This document shows, piece after piece, positions 4,381 to 62,972 of a stretch of 64,000 bases of DNA. The translations under genes and the position numbers were made by a program. Positions within the stretch are counted from its first letter, which is position 1. Each line of letters begins with the position of its first letter. The stretch comes from Gymnopus androsaceus JB14 (Eukaryota; Basidiomycota; Agaricomycetes; Agaricales; Omphalotaceae), in assembly GCA_009733575.1 (NCBI GenBank), contig ML769590.1, positions 1 through 64,000 of the forward strand, read 5' to 3'. The notes below the pieces were generated by a model. The model saw only the letters and a list, made by a program, of their open reading frames with translations, was not told the DNA's origin and did no database searches.

Positions 4381-4644
4381 ATACTTTGCACTTAAAGCGG
4401 CAATCTCATCTTTGACATCAGCAAACAGAATATTTTTATTAAAAATACAAGCGGCGGTAGAAATAAGTCTGAATGGCCATTTTGGCTTTGTGTGATCTGT
4501 GCTATCAAATTATTCTGTTGCAATTTTAATGAGTCAGGAGATTTTAGTAAAGAAGAATTAACTTGCCACTGCATGAAGGGGTCCTTGTATTCAAACTCCA
4601 AAGCTTCCATGGTCTCAAAGGGTTCAGCTTCCATCTTGAAGTCA

Positions 4645-5520
4645 TTAGGGCAACAGAAGCTTGAGCAACTTCAACTGACTCAAAAGCCTTCTTCTTCCCT
4701 TTGTACTTCTTACCTCCTCGGGATCCACACTTCTTTCCATTATTGGCTGAGAAGAAGAACCAAATTGCTGGTCCTGCTGCTGCTGGCCTTTGCCGTGCTG
4801 CTTCTTCTGTTTCTTCCAATTGGGATTGAAGCAGTGGCGTTTAACGCCACTAATCCAAGATTGAAGGGAGATTTTCTGCCTGGTGCTGCGACAATTCCAT
4901 TCATTTTTGATCAAAGTCAAAATGATTGAAACATTCCAGTTATTGCCAGTACAAGAGGTGAGAACCGAAGTCTTGAACCCTTCCCATGAACTAGGAAGAG
5001 CTGCAAGATAAAGTAGAACCTGCAAATTACCATCAAGTTTGATGTTTGATTCAGTCAAACACTGAATGATTGAAGTCAGGTTCCCAAGGGCTGGAACTGG
5101 ATTTTCCCCTTCCTCGACATGGAAGTGGATGGCAGAAAGGAACTCCAAATAAACACCTGCAATACCTGTTTCACCAAATTGAGCTTTGATAGCTTCCCAA
5201 AGTTCCTTGGAATTCCTATCATCACCATTTGCTTTAGTCACTAGGTGATGGTATTGATAGGGAATTTTCATGAGGATGATGCCAATGGCTTGCTCATCTG
5301 CTTCATTCCAGGCATCAAATTTGGTTTAGTAGTTGGGGTCATCGGATTCATCTGCCGGAGCCACAGGCTTGGTTTTTGTCCCATCAACATAGGGCCAAAG
5401 TTTAGCAAACCAGAGATAGGCTTTCATACCAGCAGCCCAAACAGTCTGGTTACTACCATCATGCATGGGAACACTGTTGAGACCAGATGTGTTGTTAAGG
5501 GTGGAAGATGTGGAATACAT
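4645..5520 (-). pseudogene. copia gag polyprotein, frameshifted
   Basis: The N-terminal part (5,326-5,520) contains the DUF4219/UBN2-like gag start with VWAAGMKAYLWFAKLWPYVDG. The longer open part (4,645-5,271) has the UBN2 signature ELWEAIKAQFGETG and further downstream EEGENPVPALGNLTSIIQ. A Gln-rich tail follows, where a zinc knuckle would be expected. A stop after DDPNY separates the halves. The gag would coat the RNA genome in virus-like particles. The ATG at 5,518-5,520 is the natural start. Confidence 0.85.
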
Positions 5521-29759: not shown

Positions 29760-30989
29760 TCAAGCGGGTGTTTGTAACTCGTTCAACGATGTTACCGTCG
29801 TGAAAAGACCGCTAATCAGGCGCCGAATGGTAAGTGAAAAAAGAGTTTCGCTACCAGGCGATTACAAGCAAGTTCCCCGCTGAAAAGAGAAAAAAAACTT
29901 GGGCTGGACCAGCAATTTCGATGGCAGAGAAAGAGAACCGAAAGCATCATAAATAGACCCAGGGTTTTTTTTTAGATGGCACTGCCGATGAAGAAAACAA
30001 AACTATTTATAGCGTCGTTGTCGCTCGGCGTGTGTTGATGAGCGGAGTAAGCCTGGACGTTCTCGATTATTCGGCCCAGGGAGAGTTCCTTCAATTGTAA
30101 CGCGTCGGGGAGCGTCCGTCAGGGTCATACACTACCGACAAGTCCAACGCGAGGAAGAGCGATCTTCAACGAGCACATGACCATGCAACACGACAGTCTA
30201 GATACAGTATCAATCACAAATTTACTATGGGTAGACCAAAAATAACCGCAAAGATATGTGGATTTTAAGTACTTATCACCGACCATGACAGAGAACGTGT
30301 CGCGAATACTATGTATCTGAATACGAGTTATGTTCGAAATACTGAGTCGAGTCTATGAGACCAGCCAAATCGATCAAGCGTATAGACATACTTCCACTAC
30401 AATCGTACCCATAGACATATTCAACGCTCTTTGACACAGTACATAAGCTATATCGTTTCAGTCGCAGATAACGACGTTCATGAACGATGTGTCTATTATG
30501 TCGCATTTCGTTTAGTATAGTATACTGTATCGTAGTGAAAAGTCAATATGTAGTCCAAGAAATGCAGGAGCGTAACTAGGCTCGGAAACTATAAAGTAGG
30601 TATGTATGCAGTACGCAAGAAAGAAAGGATATACTGCAAGAACAGTGAATAAAGCAAGAAAAGAAAAAATGTCAATGTCAATTAAAAAGATACGATACGA
30701 AGGATGAATGCAATACAAGAATCCGCAGAACAAACAATCGACGATGAAAGAAGAGAGCGGAGCGATGAATACTGTTCGAGATTGAAGGTCATTAGCGTTA
30801 GTGCGTATTCGAATGATTCGTAGGTCGTGTGGCACGTCGTATCACATCACACCGGTACTGGACCTGGACACCATGCCCGCGCCCAAGTGGTTCCTGCTCG
30901 ACCCGTCTACCCTTTGTCCATCTTCACCGCAAGCTTGACGCAACGTATCCCTTCCCAACAAGCCCACCCCTTCTCCGAAACTTGCGACT
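29760..30989. other. Intergenic region between kinase-like and CFEM genes, copy 1
   Basis: No gene is supported. A homopolymer T run near 29,967-29,975 and AT-rich sequence follow. A 107-residue hydrophobic minus-strand frame (30,512-30,835) is discussed among the rejected items. The same region is repeated at 49,266-50,496 with very few differences. Confidence 0.5.
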
Positions 30990-31519
30990 CTAACCAACCA
31001 GTACGGCTCCCGCAACAACACCCATTAGCGCAACTCCCACTCCCATTCCCATCGATCCCATCGACGCTACTGAAGAAAAGGATCCCATCCTTGAAGCAGC
31101 GTTAGACGCACTACTCGTCCCCGTCGACGATGTCTCGCTACCGGAAGCAGACGTCCCACTCCCACTTCCAGACGTAGACGCAGAAGTAGTCCCGCTCGAA
31201 GAAGATGCAGAAGTAAACGAAGTTATGGAGAATGACACAGATGTCGTCCCATTAGTAGCAAGTGCACAAAACTTCTGCGTCAAGTCTTCAGCAGTAGGGA
31301 GCTCCGAGGCGCAGGAGGATTGGATACAGAATATTAGGGAGGAGGTGTAGTTTAAGCTGTGGCAGGACAGCGGCGAGGGGAGGGAAGAGGAAGAGAAGAA
31401 AATTTAGCTATTCAGCTCGCTCCAACGTCATCGAAAGACGCACCTATTACAATAACAACTCTCCGGGACGAAATTGGAGCATCCGGCTTCTGCGATGGCG
31501 GTTTCGACACAGGTGACAA
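30990..31519 (-). pseudogene. CFEM-domain GPI-anchored protein, copy 1, first exon missing
   Basis: Exons 3 (30,990-31,356) and 2 (31,444-31,519) match the complete copy at 50,497-51,885 at a constant offset of 19,507 bp. They carry the CFEM cysteines and the Ser/Thr-rich tail with the hydrophobic C-terminus. The first exon with the signal peptide is absent, because the homologous block stops at 31,584 and is replaced by MULE-element sequence. This looks like a break in the assembly or a recombination joint, not decay of the gene itself. Confidence 0.75.
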
Positions 31520-31969
31520 CTACGAAGAGAGGAACGTAAATATTCATGCAGCGAAAAAACAGATAGGCAGGAGAACAAGACAACGGTGTTCTGGTGGTTG
31601 CGATAAGGTACGCAGCTTCAAGGCGCATTTGGATCATTTGCAAGAGGGTTCTTGCGCGGCGTTTGGTGATTGAGGCTCTGGGTGTCCTCCTGAGCCCAAC
31701 GATGGAAGTGCAGATCTGATCTATTGATGATGTCAATGAAGAGTAGATGGATTGTTGAATATTCCCTTTGTTATACACTCAGTTCGTTGCTTTTTGTCAG
31801 TGTTTTTATCTAGTATGTTCAATTATATGTTTCGTGGTTCTTTTTTTGACAGATTTATCTGCTTCAAATTGCTATAGCACTGTTCTGTACAAGTAGCGTA
31901 AAATTGTGGGTTTTTACTTTATAATATCCCCAAATATATCATATCCATATTTTGCAGCACCGTGAATCC

Positions 31970-33055
<1,086 letters not shown>

Positions 33056-33539
33056 CTCAGGCCCTTTTCCTATCGTTCCCTATCGTTTTCCTATTGGTTA
33101 GGCCACGCAAGCTCTAGTATGCCCGGTACGTGCTACGCTCAACTTGCCCTTTTTCTATTTCATTTAGGGGGCTACCGGCAGCTCAAGGCTTAGAGGCGTA
33201 GCTAACCTCTCACTGGAGCAGGTAGCGCTCGAAGTGCTAGAAGCCGCCAGCCCTTACGCATCGCTATTCTTTTGCCCTTGCCCTTCACCCTGCTGCTCGT
33301 GTCACGCATTTTGCTTGCTCAGTTCTGAATTTGTATAAATCATAGTTTGAACCGACTACGACAATGGTCCAAAATTTCATTCATTTACTGCGCTGGTACA
33401 CAAGCATTACCTTTCCTGGATCCTGTTCCACCTAAGGCTTCCCCGACCTTGCCTGTATACGTATGCTTCCGCTACCTTCTCTCTTGAGCCCTTGCTTTCT
33501 CGTTTTGCAGCATTGCACTTTGGAGGGCCGCATGTAGTT

Positions 33540-39603: not shown

Positions 39604-41486
39604 ATGTCGGACTATTACCATCCCTATGCACGTCGCACTCGTCCATCCAACGCCTCCAGTACTGGGTCAAACATTCCTAAACTCAAAAGAATTCCACGTC
39701 GATACAACATCCACCTGCCGATTCACGATGAATTGTACAGCACAGATCCTCGCCCCGAGGCGTGTGATCTCTATGTTCAACAGGCCCACAAGTTGTGGGA
39801 AACTAAACAGCTGGCAACTTTCGATAGAGCTAGCGAGACTTATGTATGCTGGCGCTGGTAAGTTTACGCTGTTCTGTCTTTTGAATGTTACTTATGTTGC
39901 GTTTCACAGCAGTTACCTTGGTATCAACAAACTCAATATTGCTCTCAAGACCGGCAAGCATGTTGAACCCGCCTACTGTCACCATATTATGAACGGTCAA
40001 CGAGATGCATCGTGGTGCAAGCTAGCAGTGGTTTTTCGCCACCCAGATGATCCTAACCTGGAGGTGGTGGGCTACCTGACGCCCCAAACCCATGTTTGTC
40101 TCGCACGTTAGTCTACTTGTGTTTTTTATGAACTATACACTTAATTATCTTCAACCTATAGATCCCATATATTCACCTCATCTCCGTCGACAAGGCCATC
40201 AGCCTCTCGTAGCAGAGTACATCGATGATGAGGAAGATGAGGATGAGCTGGACTTGGAGCTGGAAAAAAGCTACAGTGCTATGCTCCGTCCTCGTCCCAG
40301 GCCTTTGACCAGTAACGTACAATCGGATGGGGAAGTTGATGCGGAGACTCATCGTGCTTTGCTCATGAGTCTCAATCCAGACCTCGTCTTGGGTTCGTAG
40401 CCTTTCTTTTTTTTGTTGTTGCCTTGCTGATCTATGTCCAAAGCCAACAACAATGCAACATTCGCGACTGATCAATTTGTGTATGAACACTTCGATGTGA
40501 ATCATTTGACCGAGGATATCCACGCCGAGTTTGGCTACTCCCCGAGCTCTATCTTCAACACTCAGAGGTGTACTTGGGCACAAATGTCCTCCTCTTCTGC
40601 TCCTCTGACGCCAACGAAAAGAAAGTCTATCTATACTCAGAAGATGGCTGAGGCTCGCAAGCTGACAGGTACGTCGAGGCTGTACTTCCTACCAACAAGA
40701 ATGTTTACTGACTATTCTGCTAGATCCTGCCCTAACGAAATCCATCCTTGACGCGGCTAAAGATGGCCATTACCACGAAAATCCAACCACTCACCCTTCA
40801 TTCGATGTCCAACAACCTGAAACAACTCCTTCCCACTTTCAGGCTTTCCATAATACCGGTGCTGTCAATTTGGCCTACTTCCGATCAGACTATCTTCAAG
40901 ATAGTCCCATCGGAATTGCTATCCGTCAGCTCAACAGCCTTGTTGGTATCTCACTGTTTGAATTTTGCGAATTACGCAAGCGCACGGTGAAATGTTTGTC
41001 GTGTCTCTGTTATTTTTCACTGGATGGATATCAATGTCACGTTGAATTCGCGATGATTTGTCAGAACACCCCTGCTTTGGAACCTGGTACGCTGTCTTAT
41101 CTCATGGCTCTCTTTAACCACTTTCTGATTGTATCCGTTTAGCACCCGATCTCTCGCACATTTTCAACTTGACTCCCTTCAAGGTTGAAGAACGGCTTCC
41201 TTTTGGAATGATGCGCGTCCATGAGCCTTCAGCTACCAACCCAATCGGTCTAGCCTGGGTTACGTGGAACTCACAGGCGGGCGTTACTCACGACATCTGG
41301 GTTCAGTTAATTACTGCTTGGCGAAGGTGTTCTGGTGGTTGCGATAAGGTACGCAGCTTCAAGGCGCATTTGGATCATTTGCAAGAGGGTTCTTGCGCGG
41401 CGTTTGGTGATGAGGCTCTGGGTGTACCTCCTGAGCCCAACGATGGAAGTGCAGATCCTGATCATGATGATGTCAATGAAGAGTAG
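39604..41486 (+). CDS. Unknown intron-containing gene carried by the MULE-like element
   Basis: About six exons with short introns read from ATG 39,604 to TAG at 41,484-41,486, roughly 530-550 residues. The N-terminus is basic (MSDYYHPYARRTRPSNAS). A middle part has a strongly acidic run (YIDDEEDEDELDLELEKSY). A Cys-containing stretch (RTVKCLSCLCYFSLDGYQCH) could bind zinc. The C-terminal part contains LAWVTWNSQAGVTHDIWVQL and a His/Cys-bearing tail. Exon 1 is 39,604-39,857 and exon 2 about 39,910-40,106; one internal splice joint (near 40,396) is uncertain. I do not recognise the family. As it lies between the element's ends, it may be an accessory transposition protein or captured cargo. 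Its last 160 bp recur at 31,585. Confidence 0.6.
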
Positions 41487-41972: not shown

Positions 41973-42747
<775 letters not shown>

Positions 42748-43138
42748 CTACCCTTTCAACCTAGGATCCGCCATCGCTCAGCTCGCTGGATCTCGCTACC
42801 TGGCACCATCTCAGGCCCTTTTCCTATCGTTCCCTATCGTTTCCTATTGGTTAGGCCACGCAAGCTCTAGTATGCCCGGTACGTGCTACGCTCAACTTGC
42901 CCTTTTTCTATTTCATTTAGGGGGCTACCGGCAGCTCAAGGCTTAGAGGCGTAGCTAACTCTCTCACTGGAGCAGGTAGCGCCTCGAAGTGCTAGAAGCG
43001 CCAGCCCTTACGCATCGCTATTCTTTTGCCCTTGCCCTTCACCCTGCTGCTCGTGCTCACGCATTTTGCTTGCTCAGTTCTGAATTTGTATAAATCATAG
43101 TTTGAACCGACTACGACAATGTCCAAAATTTCATTCAT

Positions 43139-46100
43139 TTACTGCGCTGGTAACACAAGCATTACCTTTCCTGATCCTGTTCCACCTAAGGCTTCCCCGA
43201 CCTTGACCTGTATACGATATGCTTCCCGTACCTTCTCCTCTTGAGCCCTTGCTTTCTCGTATGCAGCAATTGCACTTTGAGAGGGCATGTAGTTCGAGGA
43301 GCTTGAGGATGGGTGAAGACGCTCAAAGTGTTCCGTTAACCGGTTGTGTGCTTTCACCCATTTCTGATGGAGCGCCAGGATTTTCAGGTTATGAGCCTCA
43401 ATCTTGCTGTCTTCCCGGAACAAGTTTCTTCTCCTGGAGTAAGCTTAATGGTGCGGTCAAAGTTCAATTCGAGGAAGCAAATTAAACTCGAGCTTACATT
43501 TACGCTTGGCATTTTTCATAGCATTTTCGTATGGATGCTTGCTCTTGTAAGACTCTCTGATGCCAAAGTCCTCCCGGTTCTACAACATGAATGTTTCCCA
43601 TGAGTATTGTAAAATTCGCTTGCAGGAAAGAACATACCACCAAGAAACGCTGTTTCATAATGTCGTAATGCCTCCCCTTGTACCAACCACCGACCAGTGT
43701 ACATTTTTTGCCCTCCATATTTACGTTTGCATGTACAACTTCAACGACATTAGATTCCCGCAAACGCGCTTTCCAAATTTCGAGTGGAATAAAACTTTTT
43801 TGCCAACACATTCCTGCAAAGGCAAACTTTGAGCTTTCCTTATCTAGAACCCAGTCTAAATGATAATTGCAATGGTTTAGGCATCTATTTGACTGGTCGG
43901 ATGGAATACACATACTTTTTCCTTCTTCACCCTCCATCTGGATGAACTCCAGTGTCTGCTCCCAGTTATTATGCGTGATGCAGATCAGGCTTCGCATCGC
44001 ATTCTTCACCTCCTCAGAAACTGAGCGGTTGCGTATATTTCGATAAAGATGTGTTGTACAGAGTGTCAAAAAACGACGTAAATGATCGTATGCGTCAAGG
44101 TCTTGAATAAACCGTCCCTGTTCATGGTAATCAAGTTTCTGCGGTATACTTCTTGCAAGGTCTTGAACGTAAAGTCCAATTCCTTGAAGATATTGTTAGA
44201 GCCACTAAAAGTCTTTTTAAGTCAGAGCTACTACTTGCCTTTCGCTTGGCCACGGTGCTGATCTACCACCCAATTCAAGACAAGTCCTTCGCAGTCATTG
44301 ACATGATTGCTGTGAACATGCCGGAAACGGAGACCCCTCCCCGCATCAGCAATAAGTATTTTATGGATCTCGTTCAAGACTATGTGATGGGCCTCGGCGG
44401 TTTGGCGTGTGAGGTAGACTCGGCAGAAAGTGAAACCTACATACACATACGGATTATTGGAATAACTCTTGAGAGAACGCGAAGATACGCACTGGTATTA
44501 GAATGGCGATCTAGCGATGCAATCTCAAATTCGTAAAAACCCACAATTCGTTTGAACCCTATATCGCTTTGGAGGTATTGAGTCTCTATTAGCCGTTTAC
44601 TCGCTGCAGGAGTCATGCAGATTGCAATCCGCAATGGTTTTCCTTTCGAGACAAGAGCCTGATCTTCTGGAACGTCGTCTTCGTCATCATCGACTTCAGC
44701 ATCGGGAATCTCAAGCATAACACGAAGGTATTGATCCATCGGTTCCAACAGTTCGTCCTGTTGAGCTTTGATATACAGGAGCCCTGCAACTTAACTCGTT
44801 AGTACAATTGAAAGCGAGTCCTGCATCTAGTTATACCTTGCCATCCAGTTCCTTCCGGGAAATGCATTTTCTTTGCATGGTCAATGTACACCTTGAGGTG
44901 ACTGCGGTTTGAAAGAGAGATGTGAAGATCGCTTATCACAGGATTCCGAAACATAGGATAACGTGTTGATAAGTACGACTGGATAATAGGATGTCGCATA
45001 AACTTCCTGGGTGTCATGTCTGCTAGATCGACCTCAAGTTGCCTGAACAATTTCTCCAGCTCAACTTTGACAAGTCTTGGGGTTTTTTCGGGGAGAGGGA
45101 TTGGGTGTGAGTGGACTCCTTTGCTTGTGATTAGGATGTATGGACAAAAAGGTCGGTACTCCTCCCAAGGGACATATTCACGGAAGACGCAATGACATTC
45201 CAGTGAGATGAGTAGCGGTTGCTTCAAAGTACCATCCGATACATCTCGATGAGTCGAAGCTGAATTGAAAACCATGTAAGTATATGAGTTGTTACGCGAA
45301 AGTAGCCAAACCCACGGCAACTATGTCTTTGAGCAGAATTATTCAATGCTGTGTGGCACATGGTTTTAGGACCAAAACCCTCGAGCTGAGCTTCCGATTC
45401 TATGCGTTCAATCTCATCTTGGTCGGCGGTCAATACTGCCTCCAAATATTCGAGGTTAAATCGCCCATTCCCGATAGTGTTGTCAAAGAAATGATCGCGA
45501 TTCAGCCTGGAATGGTGTTCACATCTCGAAAAACAAGACTGAGATGAGATGAAGCAAGATCGTACAAAGCACCTACTGGATATATGGATTTCCTTCGAAG
45601 TCTAATCGAAAAAGTAGACGGCCGGTGCAGCGATTTGGCTTTTCTGGGTAACCTCGCCTCAAAGTCATTCTCGCTTCCAGAACTGCAGCTGGAGGCGAAT
45701 ACTCATCGTTTGACTTGTTGGACTCTGAAGTACAGCCAACACGTATAAGTGCAGTAAGATATGCGGATGTCTTTTCAAAAACATCACGACGCGGTGATGC
45801 AAATTCAGTCTGTTGCTCCTTGCTATAATGCATACGCGTTCGGAGTTGATCTCGTGTCGCAGAAGAGTGGTGCCATTGTTCTTCATCGATCTCATAGAAA
45901 GGGCATATCTTGATGCCTTGGCCTTACATTTTCAGAGTCAAATCTTTGTAAAGATAAAATTTTATTGTGCTATATACGTACAGGTTGAGTGCTTGACTTT
46001 ACAAGGAACCATATCCCCAGTGCGAGAATCTATGAGTAGCGGGCAGGTGGAAATATGTTTATCGTGCCCCCGTGGTTCCCCTCTAGAGTATGCAAAATCC

Positions 46101-48069: not shown

Positions 48070-49265
48070 TCACCCTCTCTCCCAAACAGGCACCGCCCAC
48101 CTCCTATGACACCAAGCCATAAGATCGTCCCAAGTCACATCGTCCCGAATTGACGAAAGGTATTTCCCTCCCCAGTCGATAATGTTAACGTCGATAATTG
48201 TGGTTCCGTCAGCGATGACCATTACGTTGGGGATTATATTGTCGCTACATACCAATGAAGTGGGTTAGTTGTTCTGCTAGCAAAGAAAAGGAAAGAAGAA
48301 AACAAATTCTCACCGATGAACAAACCCATACTCCAACGCCATCTCCCCAACCTTATCACACATCATCATCAGCGAATCGCTCATCATCTGTCTCTTGGTC
48401 TCCATATCCTTCGCCGCGATGAATCCCGGGTCGAGGTGAGCGCTTGGCCAGGCATTTTGAGCATAACAATCATGGGCTTGATCTCGTACATCGATTCGTC
48501 ATCCTCCATTTGCACCCTCATCCTCCCCGACGCAACAAACTGCCCCACAATTTTTAGCGCTTTAACTTCGGCAATCACATCATCGTCTACGTCTTTAAGG
48601 ACCTTAACGAGGAGACGGCTGGGGTCCGGGTTCAAAGAGGCGATGTTGCGGGGGAAGTAGTTTTGCGCGAAGGAAGGTGTGAAGGAGGCGACGGAGTATA
48701 TGCCGGCGTTGTTGTTTCCTAGGGGAGAATATTTTGAGGCGAGGGTTATTCCTTCGATCATGGTTTCTGGGGAAAGATTAGGTTTTGCTGCGATGAGGTA
48801 GATGAGAACAATGCACCGAAAACATTAACCCTATCTTCGTCCTTCAGCGACAAAGGATACGGAGCGATGACCCATTCCTAACAGAAACTCAGTCGGTCTT
48901 ACAGCTCTGCATGGGTAGTTAAAAGAAGTACTCACTGGTAGCTTGAAGCTCTTCGGATACGTGTCAATGGATAGTGGCGAGGGCGTCGCGCTTGGTGGAG
49001 TTATCGGAGACCCTGGAGAAGATACAGGCTTTATAGATGTTTCCGGCGAAGGCGTACTAGGAGGCAAAGGCACGGTAAACGCTACTAGCGAGGGTTCCAT
49101 TATCAGAATCTGTCCTGCTCCGCCGTCATAAACTAAAGCCTGTTCCTCAAGCTCAAAATCCGTCTCCCTTGCAAGAGGAATACCGGGCAAAGAGATAGTA
49201 AAGACAATGTTCCATAAAGCCAGTCCTGCTGTGAGTAGGGTAATCCGAAGATGCATTGACATCAT
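48070..49265 (-). pseudogene. Predicted secreted kinase-like protein, copy 3 (frameshifted)
   Basis: This is near-identical to 28,563-29,759, with the same signal-peptide start (ATG 49,263-49,265) and the same HRDNIIPNVMV and IIDW motifs in the last exon (48,070-48,244). It differs by a missing G in a run of G (CCCGGG at 48,425-48,430 against CCCGGGG in copy 1), which turns the frame after MPGQALTST into a stop. The partial middle copy also has three G. Either this allele is truly broken, or the run length is a sequencing error. Confidence 0.6.
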
Positions 49266-50496
49266 TCAAGCGGGTGTTTGTAACTCGTTCAACGATGTTA
49301 CCGTCGTGAAAAGACCGCTAATCAGGCGCCGAATGGTAAGTGAAAAAAGAGTTTCGCTACCAGGCGATTACAAGCAAGTTCCCCGCTGAAAAGAGAAAAA
49401 AAACTTGGGCTGGACCAGCAATTTCGATGGCAGAGAAAGAGAACCGAAAGCATCATAAATAGACCCAGGGTTTTTTTTTAGATGGCACTGCCGATGAAGA
49501 AAACAAAACTATTTATAGCGTCGTTGTCGCTCGGCGTGTGTTGATGAGCGGAGTAAGCCTGGACGTTCTCGATTATTCGGCCCAGGGAGAGTTCCTTCAA
49601 TTGTAACGCGTCGGGGAGCGTCCGTCAGGGTCATACACTACCGACAAGTCCAACGCGAGGAAGAGCGATCTTCAACGAGCACATGACCATGCAACACGAC
49701 AGTCTAGATACAGTATCAATCACAAATTTACTATGGGTAGACCAAAAATAACCGCAAAGATATGTGGATTTTAAGTACTTATCACCGACCATGACAGAAA
49801 ACGTGTCGCGAATACTATGTATCTGAATACGAGTTATGTTCGAAATACTGAGTCGAGTCTATGAGACCAGCCAAATCGATCAAGCGTATAGACATACTTC
49901 CACTACAATTGTACCCATAGACATATTCAACGCTCTTTGACACAGTACATAAGCTATATCGTTTCAGTCGCAGATAACGACGTTCATGAACGATGTGTCT
50001 ATTATGTCGCATTTCGTTTAGTATAGTATACTGTATCGTAGTGAAAAGTCAATATGTAGTCCAAGAAATGCAGGAGCGTAACTAGGCTCGGAAACTATAA
50101 AGTAGGTATGTATGCAGTACGCAAGAAAGAAAGGATATACTGCAAGAACAGTGAATAAAGCAAGAAAAGAAAAAATGTCAATGTCAATTAAAAAGATACG
50201 ATACGAAGGATGAATGCAATACAAGAATCCGCAGAACAAACAATCGACGATGAAAGAAGAGAGCGGAGCGATGAATACTGTTCGAGATTGAAGGTCATTA
50301 GCGTTAGTGCGTATTCGAATGATTCGTAGGTCGTGTGGCACGTCGTATCACATCACACCGGTACTGGACCTGGACACCATGCCCGCGCCCAAGTGGTTCC
50401 TGCTCGACCCGTCTACCCTTTGTCCATCTTCACCGCAAGCTTGACGCAACGTATCCCTTCCCAACAAGCCCCACCCCTTCTCCGAAACTTGCGACT
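49266..50496. other. Intergenic region between kinase-like and CFEM genes, copy 3
   Basis: This is the same as 29,760-30,989 with only a few base changes. No gene is recognised. Confidence 0.5.
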
Positions 50497-51885
50497 CTAA
50501 CCAACCAGTACGGCTCCCGCAACAACACCCATTAGCGCAACTCCCACTCCCATTCCCATCGATCCCATCGACGCTACTGAAGAAAAGGATCCCATCCTTG
50601 AAGCAGCGTTAGACGCACTACTCGTCCCCGTCGACGATGTCTCGCTACCGGAAGCAGACGTCCCACTCCCACTTCCAGACGTAGACGCAGAAGTAGTCCC
50701 GCTCGAAGAAGATGCAGAAGTAAACGAAGTTATGGAGAATGACACAGATGTCGTCCCATTAGTAGCAAGTGCACAAAACTTCTGCGTCAAGTCTTCAGCA
50801 GTAGGGAGCTCCGAGGCGCAGGAGGATTGGATACAGAATATTAGGGAGGAGGTGTAGTTTAAGCTGTGGCAGGACAGCGGCGAGGGGAGGGAAGAGGAAG
50901 AGAAGAAAATTTAGCTATTCAGCTCGCTCCAACGTCATCGAAAGACGCACCTATTACAATAACAACTCTCCGGGACGAAATTGGAGCATCCGGCTTCTGC
51001 GATGGCGGTTTCGACACAGGTGACAACTACGAAGAGAGGAACGTAAATATTCATGCAGCGAAAAAACAGATAGGCAGGAGAACAAGACAACGAGAGATAG
51101 GTAGAAACAAAGAAATGTGGCCAGCCTTCGCCGAACGAGAAATCAAAGTGACTCGGGAATAGCTCTGAGAAACGCCCAACGCTCAACCAACTATCAACCT
51201 CTTGAACTACCTGATACCAACGCTCAGACGCCGTAGGTGACGTTACGAACTAAACTTGGTCCATATTTCAACGCTCAACAAGCAAGCAAACAATCAGGAC
51301 CTCCGTTCTCCAAAAGTCAACGCCCAACCAATCTTTTCCCAGACATCCGTCAAAACATACCGCCAGCCCGGCAAGCACGAGCTCTGAAGGAAATCCTAGC
51401 AACCTTCAAGCCAGCAGCCCTAAACGCCGAAGCCGCAGCCTACAATATTCCTCCTCTTCCTGCTCCTAAACCCGCACACATCCTACGTGTACTGCGTCCT
51501 CCGCCCCAGGACCCAAACCAACCAATCTGCTAACGTTGGCCCATAAGTTCCTGCTCTCGAACCATCAACAGAAAGCATCAAAACCAAAATTGCAAAACCT
51601 CCAAACAAAAGAAAAAAGTAATTCAGGAAAGAAGTAATACTCGCCACAACCACTATACGCGCTCAAGGAAGGCAAGTTTGCGGTATTCGTGCTGCTAGCA
51701 CTAACGCTTGTACTCCCAGTCCCAGATGTACTCGTTCCGTTAGCACTGGTGGTAGCAGAGCCGGAGCCAGTGGATGAGCTGGCGGATGAGGAAGAGGATA
51801 GGGAGCTAGCGGAGATTGTGGAGGATTGCGCTTGTACGCCTAGTGAAGCAGCAAGGAGGAGGAACAGCGAGAGTCGTCCAAACAT
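50497..51885 (-). CDS. CFEM-domain GPI-anchored cell-surface protein
   Basis: CFEM proteins are fungal, eight-cysteine, usually GPI-anchored wall or membrane proteins, some of which bind haem. Three exons join in phase: 51,645-51,885, 50,951-51,026 and 50,497-50,863, giving 227 residues. Exon 1 encodes a signal peptide (MFGRLSLFLLLAASLGVQAQ) and a Ser/Thr-rich spacer. The CFEM part then reads GCVVTCVETAIAEAGC, SNFVPESCYCNSLNY, SLIFCIQSSCASELP and LTQKFCA, with all eight Cys in family spacing (CxxxC first, CxC later). A second Ser/Thr/Gly-rich region and a hydrophobic end (GVGVALMGVVAGAVLVG) fit GPI attachment. Oddly, intron 1 is about 618 bp, ten times the local norm, and begins GC instead of GT. 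The usual Asp before the CxC is replaced by Glu. Function is inferred from the domain only. Confidence 0.82.
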
Positions 51886-53763: not shown

Positions 53764-54128
53764 AGATGGTATTTTGTACTACAGCAAGATTTTTTAAGCA
53801 ATGCTTTCGGTGAACCCTAACAAGTAGGGCTTACCACCGTACTGTAAACGGTCACGGCCATGTTTTTAACGGTGGTGCCGTGACCGTACCGTGTCAAAGA
53901 GGTTTTAACAGCCCTCACGGGACGGTCACTGTGCCTCCGTTACCTTGCTGTTTACAGTGGCACAGTGACCAATACAGTGAGAAACTATCAACCATGTTGA
54001 CGGCACAGTTTGACATGGTGTTTACCATGCTGTGACTGTCCCATTGATGTTCACTTGAAATTGGCAACACGGGACAGGCACTGTACCGTCTTACGGATAC
54101 CATGAACTGTGGGGACACAGACACGGTG

Positions 54129-54336
54129 TGTAATGCCCCCAATCCCTGATCGGCAGGACCTCAGTCTCTACAGGTGGCGGCGCATTCCTGCGCCTGCCAA
54201 TATTCTATATTATAATAATTATATTGTAGACTAACCTTAGCTTTATACCATCACCTCGCGAGTAACCTCTGAATAAATCCAGTGGTACTTGTTGGCGTGA
54301 TATTAAGGCTCTAGGCTCCACTTAGGAGCCTTTACA
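54129..54336. repeat. Left LTR, 208 bp
   Basis: Starts TGTAATGCC and ends GCCTTTACA. It contains an AT-rich block (TATTATAATAATTATATT) usable as a TATA region, an AATAAA poly(A)-like word at 54,272-54,277, and a terminal hairpin GGCTCCACTTAGGAGCC. Confidence 0.9.
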
Positions 54337-55896
54337 CTTTTTTGAGTACCTGTGTACTCTTCAGCAATCCCCGCGAGATGCCGAGTCGTTACGATGACTC
54401 AGGTTACGGTGACGATGGTAAACATTGCCAATAACCATTATTGGAATTGCTACGGCAATTCCAGCAACAACAATGTTTTTAACATTGTCAACTGTTCAAA
54501 AAAGATTCACAGCAGTGAATCTTACAACAGTGACCATTTTTGCGTCACTGGTGCCAGCACATGCGTGGGCACAAATAATTTTAAGCCCGACTCACGTTGG
54601 GCTGGAAATAATAATGTTCAGTTTGAACATTTAAATGTGGCCTCAACCACACTTGAATCACCGATTGGGTCATCCCAATCCGGTGATTTCTTTCAATTAT
54701 GTGCAACAGCACAGTCCATGAGCCAAAGGCTTTCCGCGAAATTTCGAAGCTCAGGGAAATGTTAGCAAACGCTAACATAACATGATCCACTCCTCCGGGA
54801 GACGTTCCATACCGGAACGTTAGAGATATTGATGGCAATTGGCAGCCCAGCTACGGCTGGACAGGCACAAAGCCTTGCAGTCATCCCCGCACACCTGAGG
54901 GTGAATATTCACCTCCAGGTGACTCTCTGACACCTCTGGTGTTCTCATCTCCCACTCCCGCTCCTCTTCCTCACCTCCCTTCATCTCCCACACCTTCCCC
55001 TTGTGTCCAAGAAATTGGAAATACCCAATTCCCTGACCAGGGGATTAAAAATTGGGCTGGAAACAATGTCAATGTTTATAACATTGTCAAACTGAGTCAT
55101 TTTCATGACTTGGTGCCCCAGAATGCATCCCATATCATACCCCAGCTTGACTCTAGTCAAGCTGAATGTCCATACATTTATTCCGAACATTTTGGCGCAG
55201 CTCCCGTTGCACCTTATTCCCAAATTGGATTTTAAATCCAATTTGGGAAGACACCGAGTCATTTTACGACTTGGTGCCCCATAATGCATCTTGCATTGAG
55301 GAAAACACACCCCAGCTTGACTGCAGTTGAGCTGACACTCAAAACGTTCATGCTGAACATGTTTTGGCGTGACTCCGGTTACGCCTAATTCCCAAATTGG
55401 ATTAAAGCCCCAATTTGGGAATTCTTCTCAATCGTGTGCTTCTGCACATGAAATGAGCCTTCATGATGTGAGGAACATCATGAAGAGCTTGTCCCAGCTC
55501 AACAGGAGTCAAGCTGAACATCCTCATGTTCCCCTGGAACGTTCTAGCGTGGTTCTAGCCCCGGCAAATTCCCGGATTGGAGTAAAAACCCAATTTAGGA
55601 ATTTTTCTTGATCATGTGGTTCTGCACACAATTTGAGCCCCCATGATGTACCCCGCATCATGAAAAGCTCACCCCAGCTCGATCCTAGTTGAGCTGATTG
55701 TTGATATGTTCAAATTGAACATTTTGGTGCAGCTCCAGCTACACCAAATTCCCAAATTGGGTCAAATACTCAATTTGGGAAGTCACCAAGTTGTGAAAAC
55801 GATTTGGTGACCAACAATGCTCCCCGCATTGTGCAAAACCCAGTTCAGCTTGACTATAGCCAAGCTGGACCCTTCTATGTTCTTACGGAACATGTA

Positions 55897-57522
55897 CAGT
55901 GGGTCAAAAAATTGTCCACATATTTGACACTTTTGGAAAGATCCAGGATTTGCAAGATAAATATTGGATATATCAAAAAGTGATTAGTGTGGACTAGAAA
56001 GCCCTAAATCCTGGCTCCATGTACGTATCTGGTTTGTCTTGTTTGGATCAAATCTCATTGAGATATAAGCAATTCAAATCAGTGACTCATGTGGACAATT
56101 TTTTGAGTTTGTATTGTAATAGCTTTGCTCCACAATTGTGAGCCCTCATTGATGACATCATGACTCAGAATATATGGTGATGTCATATAGACATCATAAT
56201 GATATCACACAAGCTTTCTGACATATATATAAGCATATCTTACTGATTTGTGGTTCTAACAAAATTATGAGACCTCTCACATCCTCTCAGAAAGACAATG
56301 TCCTCTCTCTGCTCCACACTGGAGCTTCTACCAGGGAAATCTCTGCTCAGACAGGGGTATCCAAGTCAAAGATTGCTTCTTTGGCAAAAGAAGCACTCCC
56401 AGACAAGGAGAGCCATCCAGCAGGCCACCCTAGAAAGCTCTCTACTACTGATGAAAATGCTGTCATCTAAACAAATCTCCACTGGCAGAGCCAAGAATGC
56501 AGCACAGGTGGCCAAAAACAGTAATCCACTCCTCTCCCATCCAGTCTCAACTCAGACCATCAGAAATACCCTTCACAAAGCCAATGTACAGCTTCACAAA
56601 AAGCAGAAAAACTCCAAGCTCACCCCTGGTCACAGGAAAGCTCGTTTGGCATTTGCTCAGAAGTATCTGGAATGGACTGTAGATGATTGGAAGAGGGTTG
56701 TTTGGTCAGATGAGACCAAAATCAATAGATTTGGGTCAGATGGGCAGCAGTATGTATGGGGAAGAAAGGGGGAGTCAGTAGGAGACAGAGGCATTGAGGA
56801 AACTGTAAAGTTTGGGGAGGAAATATCATGGTGTGGGGATGTATGGGATGGGAAGGGGTGGGGAATTTGGTGGAGGTTGAGGGGAGGATGAATGGGGAGC
56901 AGTATGTTAACATTTTGGATGGCAATCTCTTGGAAAGCATGGAAAATTTGCTTCTTGATCCAGAGATAGCCATCTTTCAGCAGGATAATGACCCTAAACA
57001 CACCTCCAAAGTTGCTGCTAAGTGGTTTGATGACCATGAAATCAACTGTATGGATTGGCCTGCACAGTCCCCTGACCTCAATCCCATTGAACATCTATGG
57101 ACAACCCTCAAAAACAAACTCAATGAATATGACAAGCCACCCTCTGGAGCTTGGGAGTTGTGGGACAGAGTGGCAGAAAAATTGGGAAAAATTACAGAGG
57201 AAGACTGTCAGAGGTTAATTAGGAGCATGCCAAGAAGGCTCAAAGCAGTTGTGAGTGCACATGGAGGTCATACCAAGTATTAAACTACCTTTTCTGCATT
57301 TCACTGTGCATGTCAAAAAATTGTTCACATGGATCATTAAATTAAATTGCTTATATCTCAATGAGTTTTGGTCCAAACAAGACAAACCAGATATGTACAT
57401 GGAGCCAGGATCTAGGGCTTTTTAGTCCACACTAATTACTTTTTGATATATCCAATATTTATCTTGCAAATCCTGGATCTTTCCAAAAGTGTCAAACATG
57501 TGGACAATTTTTTGACCCACTG
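55897..57522 (+). mobile_element. Tc1/mariner-type element 2, 1,626 bp, long terminal repeats
   Basis: The element is bounded by CAGTGGGTCAAAAAATTGTC and its inverse, flanked by TA (55,895-55,896 and 57,523-57,524). The terminal inverted repeats are about 210 bp. It lies in the LTR element's interior, inside one of that element's hairpins (ATGTTCTTACGGAACAT). Its own transposase gene occupies 56,267-57,283. Confidence 0.92.
56267..57283 (+). pseudogene. Tc1-type (DD34E-like) transposase with two frameshifts
   Basis: Begins at ATG 56,267 (MRPLTSSQKDNVLSLLHTGA) with a helix-turn-helix TREISAQTGVSKSKIASLAK. The frame shifts near 56,466 and returns near 56,818, where one G appears lost from GGGGAGG. 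The core reads RVVWSDETKINRFGSDG, IMVWGCMGWEGVG, AIFQQDNDPKHTSKVAAKWF and SPDLNPIEHLWTTLKNKL, so all three acidic catalytic residues are present. It ends GGHTKY-stop at 57,283. About 338 residues if the two single-base changes are disregarded, normal for Tc1. It is inactive as written. Confidence 0.9.
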
Positions 57523-57527
57523 TAGGT

Positions 57528-58175
57528 GTGGCTCTGGCTGCACCCAATTCCCAAATTGGACTAATACCTCAATTTGGGAATTCTAGTGCCAGTGTACACG
57601 CTGGCACAAACGAGCTGCGACCCAATTTACATTGGGCTAATGGCAATGCTATTCGCATTGCCAAACCAAGCAACTCGGCACTTGAATCACCAATTGGGTC
57701 ATCCCAATTCAATGATTTCTTTGAAGCATGTGCAAAAGCACAGGCTGCGAGCCAAAAGGCTCTCCGTGAACTTTCAGAGTTCACAGAAAATTTTCAGCTC
57801 GACCCACATCGGGCCAATGGCAATATTTGTTACATTGCCAAACTGAGTCGTTTTCACGACTTGGTGTTTAATAAGGCCAAGGACACTGTCCCAGGCATGG
57901 TTCAGCTTGACTCTGGTCAGGCTGAACATCATAGTGCTCCATGCAAACATCCTAGCATGGCTAATGCCATGCTCACGCACAGTTTTCAGCTTGACTCTGG
58001 TCAAGCTGAGTATCCAAATGTTCTACCTGAACGTTTTAGTGTGGCTAATGCCACACTCAAATCACCGTTTGGGTTACCCCAAAACGTGTTTCCTGACCAA
58101 GTCCATCCTAGGATTGGACTCGGGAGGACAAACTCATCAAGGAGAGGACCCACGCGGGAACGTCAGAGATACTGA
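57528..58175 (+). other. 215-codon open frame across the hairpin array
   Basis: An open frame runs through this part of the LTR element. Its product repeats words such as QLDSGQAE that result directly from CAGCTTGACTCTGGTCAAGCTG-type palindromes. A related frame lies at 54,352-54,765. The protein resembles nothing I know. Because the repeating unit is a DNA palindrome, I think the open frame is a by-product, though translation cannot be excluded. Confidence 0.25.
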
Positions 58176-58820
58176 CAGAGACTGATGGGCTGACATTGCT
58201 CAGACAGGCCTAAGGCCTTCCTGTCATCCCCGCTCATCTGATGGTGAAATTTCACTGCCAGATGTCTCTCTGACACTTCCCGTGTCCTCATCTCCCCCTC
58301 CCACCCCGGTTCCTCCCCCTTGCGTCGATCCGCATCCCGAATCAAATCAAGAGGAGAGGTTCACCCCTTGGAAGGCCATGCCTTCCAAATTGACGGTGGT
58401 ACATGGTACCACTGTAAATCCACATTTTGGCACAACCAGGCCCTTGAAAAGGGATTGGATGGACCGAGTCACTGTCCAGCGACTCCATGACTGAGATCTC
58501 CAAGAAATTGGAGATTCACAATTCCTGACCAGGGAATTCTTTTCAATATTGATGGGTACCCCGTTGATAGACTCCTGGACAGTGGGAAAGACCCACCATC
58601 CAGAAATTGTGGAAGGCAAATCCATTGTAAACTACGACAGATTTCTGAAACTCACAGAGCAAGCTCAAAATGTGTACAACGTTCACAAGCAAGCTTCTTT
58701 TCTCTTTGAGAGGGGGAGGGCCAGTGTCAAAATACACTAGCTCACTCTACATCTCAAGTATGTGGGATTAAAAATCTCTCAAAACACAATTCGCCAGAGG
58801 ATTGGGTACGGTACATCCAG

Positions 58821-59258
58821 ATGTACCCCAACCAATGTCCTACTGGCATAAAGCATAAACACAATGATCATACTCTCACCCGTAATGTACGTGGATGGTT
58901 ACTAGTAAGTAACCATGCCCCAGTTATAGCAGCAGGGACTTCCAAGGTGAAGCAGCATTGCTTCACCTTACAAACAGCAGAGTTGTTCACAACTCCAGGA
59001 CTTTACGCATCCATTACCGGATGTGATGAGACAAATATTGTCTCAAATATATCAACATCACCATATACAGGTGACATTGATAATGCTACGTTGTATGATG
59101 TAGCCTTGTTTTACACCTCCCAAGGCATTACCATTGAAATGGGAAAAGACATAACTGTCTTTGCCCTTCAGTGGTTGACTATGTTCCATACAACGGACCC
59201 TAGTCTTGGATGCAAGTTACATGCAACACGTGACCATGTTCTTCACTCCCGTTTCTGA
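58821..59258 (+). other. 145-codon open frame near the right LTR
   Basis: A frame without repeats at protein level (for example GLYASITGCDETNIVSNIST) lies between 58,821 and 59,258, but the DNA still contains hairpins such as GGTGAAGCAGCATTGCTTCA with its closing C's. The start is an alternative codon or an internal ATG. No family is recognised. Confidence 0.2.
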
Positions 59259-59451
59259 ATACATGGCACGCTACCATGCATTCAAAATCCCAGGACATAT
59301 TCATGACACGCTATAGTGAATATGTTCCCAACTTCAACTATCAAGTTGAAGTTCTCACAAATATGCTCCAGCTGGGTTGACACGCTATCAAACCAGTTGG
59401 GGGCCCCTTTCCTTTTCAATTGAACTGTAGGCTCAATCTGGCTGGGGAGGG

Positions 59452-59659
59452 TGTAGCACCCCCGATCCCTCATCAGCAGGACCTCAGTCTCTACAGGTGG
59501 CGGCACGTTCCCGCCCCTGCCAATATTCTATATTACAATAATTATATTGTAGACTAACCTTAGCTTTATACCATCACCTCGCGAGTAACCTCTGAATAAA
59601 TCCAGTAGTACTCATTGGCGTGATATTAAGGCTCTAGGCTCCACTTAGGAGCCTTTACA
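59452..59659. repeat. Right LTR, 208 bp
   Basis: Starts TGTAGCACC and ends GCCTTTACA; same length as the left LTR and about 93 percent identical by eye. It is followed by CAGTG, the second copy of the target duplication, which forms part of the hAT MITE end. Confidence 0.9.
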
Positions 59660-59756
59660 CAGTGGTAAGCCCTACTAACAAGAGTGAGTCCCCAGCATTG
59701 CCAAAACTTGGAGAATCAATGGTTAGGGTCCGGGGTTCCTGTATGGAGTCGATCTT

Positions 59757-60152
59757 CATCAGAAAAAACTGTTTTGGGCCCAGGAGGATCTAAGGTCACC
59801 TAGTCCTCTTAGGCAACCTGAGGCATCCTACTTGGCCCAGGAAAAAGGGTAAAACTTTGGACACCTCAGGTATCCTAGTCATCCTAGGTGTCCTGGGATA
59901 TCCTGGGACATCCTGGGGCATCCTGAGGTATCCTGGGATAGAAATTTTATCCTAGGATGCCCCAGGATACCCCAGGATACCCTCAGGATGCCCCAGGACA
60001 TCCCAGGATATCCCAGGACACCTAGGATGACTAGGATACCTGAGGTGTCCAAAGTTTTACCCTTTTTCCTGGGCCAACTAGGATGCCTCAGGTTGCCTAA
60101 GAGGACTAGGTGACCTTAGATCCTCCTGGGTCCAAAACAGTTTTTGCTGATG
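59757..60152. repeat. 396-bp foldback (near-perfect inverted repeat)
   Basis: The two arms, each about 185 bp, start CATCAG and meet around 59,940-59,950 at AGAAATTTT. Pairing is almost complete, for example GGACACCTCAGGTATCCTAG on the left and its inverse on the right. The arms are themselves made of CCTGGG, CATCCT and TATCCT words. No coding capacity and no clear target duplication. Confidence 0.88.
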
Positions 60153-61460
60153 TTGCAGAAGAGAGACCAAAGGGCATGTATGATCTTTGGAATGCTTCCT
60201 CTTTTGTCTCTATTTGGAAGCTTGGAGGTGCTGTGATGTTCAGGACTGTTTACAAGGAGGGCACAATTGCAGTTGAGGCTCTACATCTGGAAAAATTCCC
60301 TAGTGCCCAGGGACATATAGGTTGCACTGAGGTACCCACAGGGTGACTAGGACACCCAGGATGTCTAGGCACCACAGGCACCCTAAAGAAACCCCCCAAA
60401 TCCTGTGCATCCTGAGGATAGAAAAGTATCTCTGAGGTGTCTCTGAATATTCCTGGGGTGTCCCTGAATATCCCTGGGGTGTCCCTGGGGTGCCCTGGGA
60501 ATCCATAGAGAAAATATTTAAATAATATATTTTTTACCATCTTAGCCTCTTACACTCATATTTACCTTCTTTGTTTACTTATTCATTATTCAAGTCTCGG
60601 TACTTAATACACTTATTATAGATGGTTGTTGTGCTTATTGCTCACTGCTTATTATTGTCTTATTCATTTGGTGTTTCAGCGCTTAAATTCAAGTGACTCA
60701 TAATAAACTTAAAGATTGACACCTCACAGGTTTGAACTCTCAGCCTCGCAGTCAACTGTATTATATAAGCAATAACGCGAGAGCTCAAAACCACTGAACT
60801 ATCTTGATGTAAGATATGCTAGAAACTTTGTGCACTATATACACTAACTAGTGGGGTCAGCATCACCTATAAGAAAATTGGTGAGCACTTGGTCATAAGT
60901 GCACATGAACCCATTCTCCCACCATGGTCTACCAAGACTATCTCCAATGTTACCAGTAATTATTCTTAGGTAAAAAGGGCTTGAAATACAAAAACTAGAC
61001 TCAATGTTTTGTCTTTTGGTTAATTTAATTTTATTGTGAATATAATGTAGTTTTTAATCAAGACATAAAGTATGCAGGCCAAAACGTCGGATGGGCGCTT
61101 AAATCACGTGCTCGTAAGCACGAGCACATGATCCCTCTCCCAGGGTGTCCCAGGGCTTCCCACAGCTGTCCCAGGGCTTCCTAGAGCTTCCCAGGATCCC
61201 CAGGAATTTGCCCATTTCCCAGGCAGCCCAAGTAACCTGAGCAGCCTAGGGCTTTAGCCAAATCCTGAAGCCCTTTGGGCTTGCTTGAGGCTAATTTCTG
61301 ATTAACTTCAGAGATACTCAAGGATCCCTAGAATTTGGCCAAAATCCTGGGCTACCTGGGGTGCTTGTGTTGCCTAGTGTTGCCTAGGAATTAGCCAAAT
61401 TCCTGGGCATCCCTGAGAGTGACCAGGCATACCTGGACTTGCCTGGGCTTTAGGTAGTTT
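60153..61460. repeat. CCTGG/CCAGG-rich repeat zone
   Basis: Words built on CCTGGG or CCCAGG are very frequent at 60,330-60,500 and 61,130-61,450. A tandem unit of about 20 bp, CTGAATATTCCTGGGGTGTC, occurs twice and then in part near 60,442-60,495. The middle (60,510-61,080) is AT-rich and contains a degenerate tRNA-like segment and an 8-bp hairpin at about 61,109-61,128. No gene is supported. Confidence 0.55.
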
Positions 61461-62972
61461 TCCAGATGCTAGAGTATAACTCTAATTTAGGGATCCACAC
61501 TGTACTGTATACAGTTATGGCCGTATAAAAACAGCTATAAAATTTGCAAAATTTCTTCTGTATGGTATAGTATATGGTACGGATTCATCATCATTCTGGC
61601 ACCCGTATACTGTAGAAATATGGTATACAGCACATTAGATCTCAAGTTACAGAGTCCCGGCTGATATCAATTATGCAAAAACCATTAATTTGAGTATTTT
61701 GGGACCCACTGACATATAGCTGCTTGCCAAATTCTTGCTGTACAGGGTACCCATATAGCAACTGTATAAATATGGCTGTAAAAAGTGTCCAAGCATACCC
61801 TTTATGGTATGGTTATAGGTACCTGTATAAACATACCGTACATCAGCAGTTTCGCAAAAGTATGAGCGCTATGGGAAGTATAGTGTGTATTGAACTTATA
61901 CATCCATAATTATCCATACTTAGCCATATCATGTTCTATTGGATTCTTCCATACATGCAGAAATGTATGGAAAATGTATAAAACTTGTAACATGAATACA
62001 CTGTTCCAGACAACTACAACATGACAAAAATTGTATTTACTGATGGTTCTGGCGGATATTTTCAAGTGCAGTCTGTAACTTCCCAATCTCTGCCTCTTTC
62101 AACACTAACCACTCTTCCAGCAACCTTATTACACTCCTCAGTCTCTGATTTTCCCTATAGACCACAGGAACCACTTCGTGAATTAATGCTGATCGGTGAA
62201 CGAGCTTGAGCCGCAAGAGCAGCCACTTCAAGTCATCTTGATTGAGTCATGCTGACAACATTTTTTGAATTGGTTAATGTCAATTTGCAGTAATAAATAA
62301 TTGTAAACGTATGTGATACACTCGAATTAGGCTCCAGGGCCTTTTTCATTTCTCTATGGCAGCTGTCCTCCATAACAAGGGTTGCATCAAGATCAATTGA
62401 ATCCTCTTTCCTCCCAGTTTGAATTGTGATTGTATCCAGATTATCAACAATGACTCCGGCATTCTTTTTAGCAGACTCGGTACTGTGGTACTCCAAGTCA
62501 TTGCTAACACTGATAAATTCAATGTTACTCAAGTTGTATAAGTAAAAGCACATACTTTTGGAGTGGCTTGTGGGGACTAGTAAGCTTTTGGGGTGGCTCA
62601 TGTAGAGCCAAATTTTTGTTCTCTGTTTTGTACTTCAGAGATTCAGAATCAGTCATGATGGGATGAAGTGACTTGAAAAATTTGGAACTTCCAATACCCG
62701 GGATAACTCAGGATCCAGGGCGGGCCATTAGCCCTAACCCTAAATGGTAAGAACTCTTGACATGGCAGTTGAGAATTCTTACCACTGGCACCTTTTAAAT
62801 GGCGAGCAAATAATTACTGTCAGTCAAACTAGGATTTCATTTGCATGATAATTGGCATAATGGTTGACATAAAAAGCTTTAAATAAGTCTAATGAGTCAT
62901 AAAATTTCAACAAACGAGGTATTGGGGAAAGTCCATAAACCAGGATGAGATGAGCACCTCATAGAAGAGCAT
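61461..62972. other. No recognisable gene; two unidentified minus-strand open frames
   Basis: 61,500-61,980 is AT-rich with many GTATGG and CCATAC words. Minus-strand open frames at 62,037-62,231 (contains LRSVIRLLEEWLVLKEAEIG, possibly coiled coil) and 62,233-62,601 have no family I recognise, although they may be 3' parts of the transposon whose fragment follows to the right. Confidence 0.3.

Follow-up and report, generated by a model that had tools for sequence, protein, structure and literature searches.

The locus examined here raises the question of why the interior of a transposable element should consist largely of short hairpins. It lies in a window of 64,000 nucleotides (the whole stretch of DNA analysed, from contig ML769590.1 of Gymnopus androsaceus JB14), in which an earlier note had described an element flanked by long terminal repeats (LTRs) with a chain of distinct hairpins between them. 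Coding sequences in which overall RNA folding is selected for are known to us mainly from RNA viruses. We find that the element is a decayed copy of a non-autonomous, pol-less LTR retrotransposon, an identification we regard as practically certain. Calculations on its sister copies show, with high confidence, that the interior is a dual code, in which a protein and a hairpin chain are written together by means of synonymous codon choice. The best explanation overall, which we favour with moderate confidence, is that selection maintains the folding of the coding RNA, perhaps because it serves packaging or compaction.

The five stems named in the earlier note (54443-54462, 54759-54778, 54802-54820, 55143-55164 and 55217-55249) were all located at those coordinates. 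Stem coverage was calculated from stems of 7 bp or more that are perfectly Watson-Crick paired and enclose a loop of 3-16 nt, and the result was compared with 100 dinucleotide shuffles. The two halves of the interior, which are separated by a Tc1-type insert, have coverages of 23.5% (54338-55889; shuffles 1.4% on average, 5.7% at most) and 17.5% (57530-59450; shuffles 1.3% and 4.6%), so that chance can be rejected as the origin of the hairpins. The insert itself (2.8%, shuffled 1.7%) and the 328 bp to the left of the 5' LTR (4.3%, shuffled 2.3%) are near background, and positions 1-53800 of the window have 1.5%. The local folding energy of the sense strand, calculated with pair spans of at most 60 and 20 shuffles, corresponds to z-scores of -16.2 and -17.4 for the 5' and 3' halves. 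A transcript would thus be almost wholly structured, as had been claimed, in the sense of a prediction. Hairpins of 5 bp or more were predicted 83 times, with a loop of 4 nt in 40 cases and of 3-5 nt in 70. The features of the element are the following:

53825..59674, no strand assigned: hAT-type miniature element with terminal repeats TAGGGCTTACCACCGT and the 8-bp duplication CTAACAAG at 53817-53824 and 59675-59682, delimited by eye; we take it to be hAT from the 8-bp duplication and the terminal repeat.
54129..54336, + strand: 5' LTR, TGTA...TACA, with the flank CGGTG.
54378..55889, + strand: 5' part of the hairpin-chain coding region, decayed, beginning MPSRYDD like the gene models of the family.
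55139..55889, + strand: tandem units that recur every 170-182 nt (about 56-60 codons) and contain a run of some 5-6 hairpins each.
55890..57529, + strand: Tc1-type transposon inside the element, with HTH_Tnp_Tc3_2 and DDE_3 matches in two frames.
57530..59258, + strand: 3' part of the hairpin-chain coding region, by its frames and stem coverage.
58860..59318, + strand: C-terminal domain in common with a second LTR family; the match in the window copy crosses two stops.
59262..59278, + strand: 3' stem-loop with stem CATGG/CCATG and loop CACGCTA.
59302..59318, + strand: 3' stem-loop with loop CACGCTA, its stem decayed in the window copy.
59377..59391, + strand: 3' stem-loop with stem TTGA/TCAA and loop CACGCTA.
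59444..59451, + strand: polypurine tract GGGGAGGG, directly before the 3' LTR.
59452..59659, + strand: 3' LTR, followed by the flank CAGTG, which has one mismatch to CGGTG.

The description as an LTR-flanked element with a hairpin-chain interior accordingly holds, with regard to both the LTRs and the stems. By eye, the LTR element is inserted into the right end of the hAT-type miniature element. There are 14 differences between its two LTRs over 208 sites, and the inverted arms of the Tc1-type insert (217 nt) are 93% complementary. From the genome searched (83.3 Mb, 934 contigs), 16 copies with two LTRs were compared; their LTR pairs differ at 3-16 sites, the highest value being that of L066, where the LTR ends are poorly placed. 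The ends are TGTAAC..GTTACA in 12 of the 16 (TGTAAT..TTTACA in the window; the start in L066 was not placed). A perfect 5-bp target-site duplication is found in 12 of them; the window copy has one mismatch, L077 and L066 have none, and in L065 the site is unreadable (N). The polypurine tract GGGGAGGG or a one-base variant is present in all 16, and in 13 of them the LTR is followed by CTTTTTTGAGTACC, which as a primer-binding site complementary to a tRNA would lack the initial TGG and by eye has no tRNA-like start. As a side observation, also by eye, TGAGTAC in this stretch of the window copy (54337-54359) is complementary to GTACTCA in the window's 3' LTR, as self-priming would need.

No pol domain was detected by Pfam in five open reading frames (ORFs) of the window interior, in the ORFs of sister copies L080 and L064, or in the family gene model P0005. 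Five family proteins are from Gymnopus androsaceus JB14, and two further relatives are found in JGI records.

With regard to the interior, the interpretation in the earlier note is supported in part: it had recognized the LTR element and its hairpins and had missed the coding role and the tandem unit. The longest listed sense frame in the window copy has 219 codons, and no relatives of this 219-aa ORF were found. Sister copies, on the other hand, carry stop-to-stop frames of 896 (L080), 705 (L064), 697 (L079) and 597 (L069) codons, and the 979-aa P0005 starts with the same residues as the window ATG at 54378, 41 bases after the LTR. The window copy is thus decayed, and the interior is protein-coding in its sisters. 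The encoded protein contains tandem units of about 56-60 residues. For all ten pairs of L080 units compared, the ratio of nonsynonymous to synonymous change (dN/dS, Nei-Gojobori) is 0.35-0.71, and the changes number 208 at third codon positions versus 146 and 141 at the other two.

These results bear on the possibility that the interior is a non-coding structural RNA, similar to a miniature terminal-repeat element or a retrozyme, in which a long frame is accidental. The short frames of the window copy would agree with it, as would the Pfam search, which gave no known domain in the hairpin-family ORFs tested, and the variants among close copies, which have no codon-position (modulo 3) bias and hence do not support coding either. 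The last result is expected if most of these differences postdate insertion. The three longest sister frames, the dN/dS values below 1 and a domain that is 43% identical over 129 aa to one in a different family (see below) all speak against it, and no Rfam family reached its gathering score across 53800-59700, the hammerhead of retrozymes included. A ribozyme or other known RNA was rejected on that ground, and we consider a non-coding interior very improbable. A structure search gave no match, and a scan of viral contigs for the C-terminal domain gave no hit; the AlphaFold model of this domain (mean predicted local distance difference test score, pLDDT, 57) was too weak to be of use.

To relate the hairpins to the code, codons were permuted among synonymous places, which leaves the protein and the codon usage unchanged. 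With 100 such shuffles for each ORF, the mean stem coverage falls from 22.6 to 3.0% in L080, from 19.9 to 2.7% in L064 and from 24.5 to 2.9% in L079, with maxima of 6.6, 6.2 and 9.4%, respectively. The local folding z-scores of the three ORFs are -21, -14 and -22 (12 shuffles each). Since synonymous shuffling abolishes the hairpins, they depend on the choice of synonymous codons. Seven control ORF pieces in the window (Copia, Tc1, mariner and others) have z-scores of only 0.2 to -3.0, the Copia-like ones being lowest. Two of these pieces, one from Copia and the other at 40666-41142, exceed all 50 of their shuffles in coverage, at 8.1 and 6.3%.

It could be argued that the hairpins are a by-product of a repetitive protein and its codon usage, as the protein is indeed repetitive and classes of hairpins recur along with its units. 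The same protein and codons in shuffled order, however, lose the hairpins, and z-scores of -8.5, -18.0 and -12.1 (30 synonymous shuffles) were obtained for L080 segments upstream of, within and downstream of the tandem units, i.e. the parts outside the units also fold far beyond their shuffles. The by-product explanation was rejected on the basis of the fall in coverage, and we give it next to no credence. The folding outside the units likewise excludes a single amplified repeat. The statement that the interior is not one repeat amplified is therefore correct insofar as the tandem array makes up only part of it, but from about 55136 onwards a unit with homologous hairpins recurs in tandem at intervals of 170-182 nt.

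The extent of the folding can be placed on a scale by the mean folding excess, calculated here in 375-base windows. For the L080 ORF it is 56% relative to dinucleotide shuffles and 44% relative to synonymous ones. Relative to dinucleotide shuffles, the two halves of the window interior have 54% and 37%, and the 3' end of the second family 19%. A Copia stretch in the window has 11%, and two other stretches -4.5% and -0.1%. The values given in PMC7642675 are 15% for SARS-CoV-2, 7-9% for hepatitis C virus and 23.4% for the highest mean among vertebrate RNA viruses, with a local peak of more than 50% in one SARS-CoV-2 gene; as described there, the method uses 350-base fragments and a dinucleotide-keeping shuffle and resembles the present one without being identical to it, so the comparison with L080 is approximate. 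The closest analogy is genome-scale ordered RNA structure (GORS), where coding RNA folds far beyond shuffles through many consecutive stem-loops along the genes, and in terms of predicted folding energy the hairpin family falls within it. It differs in the much larger excess and in being an LTR retrotransposon whose pairs are partly kept in position, whereas GORS is called poorly conserved in position in PMC7642675. It may be that no other natural coding sequence known to us is folded as strongly as the hairpin-chain ORF.

Some milder folding was observed elsewhere in the window. A broken Copia-like element at 2066-5325 on the minus strand (gag_pre-integrs; rve below the cut-off) is the one with the 11% excess, and its three ORF pieces have synonymous z-scores of -1.4 to -3.0; moderate folding may be common among the LTR elements of this genome. 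The stretch 61000-62000 also folds well (z-scores of -6.0 and -7.2, by strand). Just to the right of the hairpin element, the sequence at 59776-60135 by eye folds back imperfectly on itself. Its two arms, each about 120 bp long, are rich in CCTGGG/CCCAGG decamers, and it contains tandem repeats at 59891-60022.

The 3' end of the element provides a link to a second family. With one base changed, the polypurine tract and LTR start have 13 exact sites elsewhere in the genome. At one second-family 3' end, L081, the encoded domain matches the C-terminus of the hairpin-family protein with 43% identity over 129 aa, and the clear match to the L080 protein is confined to this domain. A genome search with the domain listed 91 matches, which belong to loci of both families (all 104 candidates scored). 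With the N-terminal 600 residues of the L080 protein, none of the 115 listed matches is at a recognized second-family locus (73 of 211 candidates scored). Reverse transcriptase (RT) matches are found upstream of the domain on the same strand, 3.5-4.4 kb away at C87, C164, C32, C17, C645, C49 and C546 and 7.6 kb away at C238, i.e. at 8 of about 25 second-family domain loci (best 150 of 285 candidates scored). LTR matches lie about 10.6 kb apart at C164, C17, C133 and C510, and an integrase search gave no clear partner among the best 150 of 289 candidates. The second family is thus very probably autonomous, with its own RT, and from the positions its domain would be encoded by an ORF that follows pol and precedes the 3' LTR. 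The hairpin family would then be a pol-less relative with the same 3' end. A possible third family was also noted at C78:203256-208400 and C141:125256-130660, where the polypurine tract (TCTGGTTGGGGAGGATGTAAC) is similar and RT is matched some 4.7-5 kb upstream.

In the shared domain the nucleotide identity between the families is 52-54%. At homologous codon columns, the second-family sequences L081 and L083 nevertheless have 40 and 43 base pairs, respectively, in common with L065, and 40 each in common with L077. Synonymous shuffles of either partner give on average 8.5-15.6 shared pairs, and none of 300 reaches the observed number. Of the shared pairs, 5-7 are changed on both sides between the families. 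Where the third base is paired in both families it is more conserved, at identical amino acids, in all eight comparisons, significantly so in two, both with L083.

Within the hairpin family, loss of the stems in sister copies had been named in the earlier note as a ground for refutation; the stems are largely kept, and partly also in the second family, so that the observation withstands this test. Between two classes of the element, fixed differences in the 5' half affect 16 of 525 stem sites and 58 of 858 other sites (p 0.003). In the 3' half the counts are 3 of 393 and 10 of 859 (p 0.76), and the pooled value is p 0.011. Three stem pairs are changed on both sides between the classes and still paired, with none in four slid controls. 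An alignment of 39 tandem units with 58 stem pairs has Watson-Crick pairs in 1712 of 2210 cells (77%, versus 17-30% when slid), and at 17 of the pairs two Watson-Crick types are found that have neither base in common (2-6 when slid). RNAalifold finds 28 pairs in this alignment, ten of which have changes on both sides.

An explanation that does not invoke selection is a mutational ratchet, in which template switching at fold-backs repeatedly rewrites one arm from the other while the element is reverse transcribed, such that hairpins become and stay perfect and the ORF survives regardless. Arm-to-arm copying would also yield compensatory changes between units, and the fact that both strands fold extremely well fits it, as does the lack of a sense-strand preference among wobble pairs in recent copies (see below). 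It does not readily account for the slower change of stems between the element classes (the 3' half not being significant), for the more conserved third bases, for the base pairs kept at homologous codons in the second family, or for the small z-scores of the seven control pieces. In addition, the sense z-score is beyond the antisense one in nine of ten stretches, which are not independent of each other: five of five domain sequences, three of three L080 segments and the 5' half in the window. Template switching, which the earlier note had offered as one possible origin, may well have created some of the hairpins but is not favoured as the whole story, and as such we consider it rather improbable.

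It is important to note that a number of results weigh against selection on the sense RNA. The compensatory-change check gave a clear outcome in the 5' half, with 159 double-change cells among the copies versus 5-25 in slid controls, but a weak one in the 3' part, where pair-keeping double changes among close copies are barely above the controls (39 versus 3-31). Many of the close-copy double changes are CG to TA at CpG sites. Among stem variants found in at least two close copies, A.C is as frequent as G.U or more so (62 versus 56 and 50 versus 37), and the majority states show the same (15 versus 10 and 21 versus 9), which means that a sense-strand preference is absent among close copies. 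In the unit alignment G.T exceeds A.C only by 185 to 150, and wobble counts at isolated mismatches were too few for a decision. The A.C excess may plausibly be ascribed to CpG decay after insertion, which is not proven. Among 13 copies, those with the least CpG loss have the highest stem coverage (L077 0.25, L065 0.26) and those with the most loss nearly the lowest (L067 0.19, L068 0.20). The recent variation among copies looks like mostly neutral decay after insertion.

The comparison between the families has weak points of the same kind. Most of the shared pairs have the same bases (29 of 40 and 37 of 43), so inheritance contributes. The antisense strand also shares pairs, 22-38 for L081 and L083, a number reached by 0-3 of 300 shuffles, as complementary stems must give. 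L082 shares only 14-15 sense pairs, reached by 3 of 300 shuffles of one partner and by 33 of 300 of the other, and more antisense ones (21). L085 and L084 of the second family fold weakly (z-scores of -1.6 and -1.1), and antisense folding is itself extreme, the window z-scores being -12.6 in the 5' half and, in the 3' half, -19.7 against -17.4 for sense. With this mixed strand evidence, selection on the sense RNA is supported and not proven; we consider it probable, because many hairpins keep their codon positions in a second family despite such a low nucleotide identity.

Upstream of the polypurine tract, both families have stem-loops with the loop CACGCTA. Its stems vary from place to place (CATGG, TTGA, ATTCACGA and CACGA). 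In 21 loci, the loop word occurs 44 times in the sense direction, 32 times with a stem of at least 4 bp, versus 0 of 5 in the antisense direction, and the 17-mer with the stem CACGA/TCGTG has 84 genome sites with at most two mismatches versus 4 for a reversed control. The stem at 59302..59318, decayed in the window, is a perfect one of 10-12 bp in 5 of 20 sister loci (L061-L080). A constant loop on varying stems would look like a specific RNA-binding site, for which it is a candidate.

The RNA of a pol-less LTR retrotransposon must enter particles made by a relative. In the mechanism we propose, a single long ORF is written such that its sense RNA would fold into a near-continuous chain of short hairpins. 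The folded RNA would compact the genomic RNA or mark it for packaging into particles supplied by the proteins of the larger relative, very probably the one with its own RT, and the CACGCTA stem-loops before the polypurine tract would be the likeliest site of specific recognition. That the fold has a packaging or compaction role is a tentative assignment, somewhat short of an even chance. More tentative still is its extension to a distributed code, in which dozens of coding-RNA hairpins are kept by a parasite element to ride the larger relative.

Another option is that the fold shields the RNA from host surveillance: with short stems and little open strand, RNA interference or nucleases would act poorly, and the overall fold, not any single hairpin, would matter. 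Perfect stems are at most 14 bp in the five sister copies examined, in line with such a role, and the window copy has one of 15-16 bp. These lengths also bear on the suggestion in the earlier note that the element could be a source of small RNAs. PMC7642675 links genome-scale RNA structure to host persistence, possibly via shielding, with folding rather than particular structures being important. Yet the positions of the hairpins are conserved between the families beyond what a position-free role would need, and imperfect inverted matches between tandem units reach 34-37 nt. We rank shielding close behind packaging or compaction, and regard it as unlikely.

With packaging or compaction as the preferred role, dispersed packaging signals, as described for MS2 and satellite tobacco necrosis virus (PMC6281560, PMC4836477), offer a parallel in their many coding-RNA stem-loops, some of which share a loop motif according to these sources. 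Here, most loops differ, CACGCTA is common to the 3' set only, and the stem-loops are predicted from the sequence. Retrozymes, in the account of PMC4918200, are likewise non-autonomous retroelements in which RNA structure matters; the hairpin family differs in being protein-coding and in having no Rfam ribozyme at gathering score. Within the terms and the library searched, and judged by titles and the starts of abstracts, no publication was found that deals with this element or with LTR elements whose coding sequence forms a hairpin chain. Large retrotransposon derivatives and terminal-repeat retrotransposons in miniature (LARDs and TRIMs) are defined as non-autonomous LTR retrotransposons. 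The hairpin family resembles them in its LTRs, target duplication, polypurine tract, lack of a detected pol and RT-bearing relatives, and differs from them by its long ORF and extreme predicted fold.

Elsewhere in the window, matching ORFs at 28803-31403 and 48384-50910 point to a segmental duplication about 19.5 kb apart, and broken ORFs that we take to be helicase-like occur in more than one copy and orientation at 31900-33100 and 42000-46000.

If the present interpretation is true, the hairpin family is an extreme and tractable example of a sequence that encodes a protein and an RNA shape at once, of a kind in which gene finders and readers can each overlook one half. The mean folding excess of this LTR retrotransposon gene would be over two times as large as the highest viral genome mean given in PMC7642675. 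With many genomic copies and a probably autonomous, milder relative (19% at its 3' end), it would make genomic RNA folding testable outside viruses.

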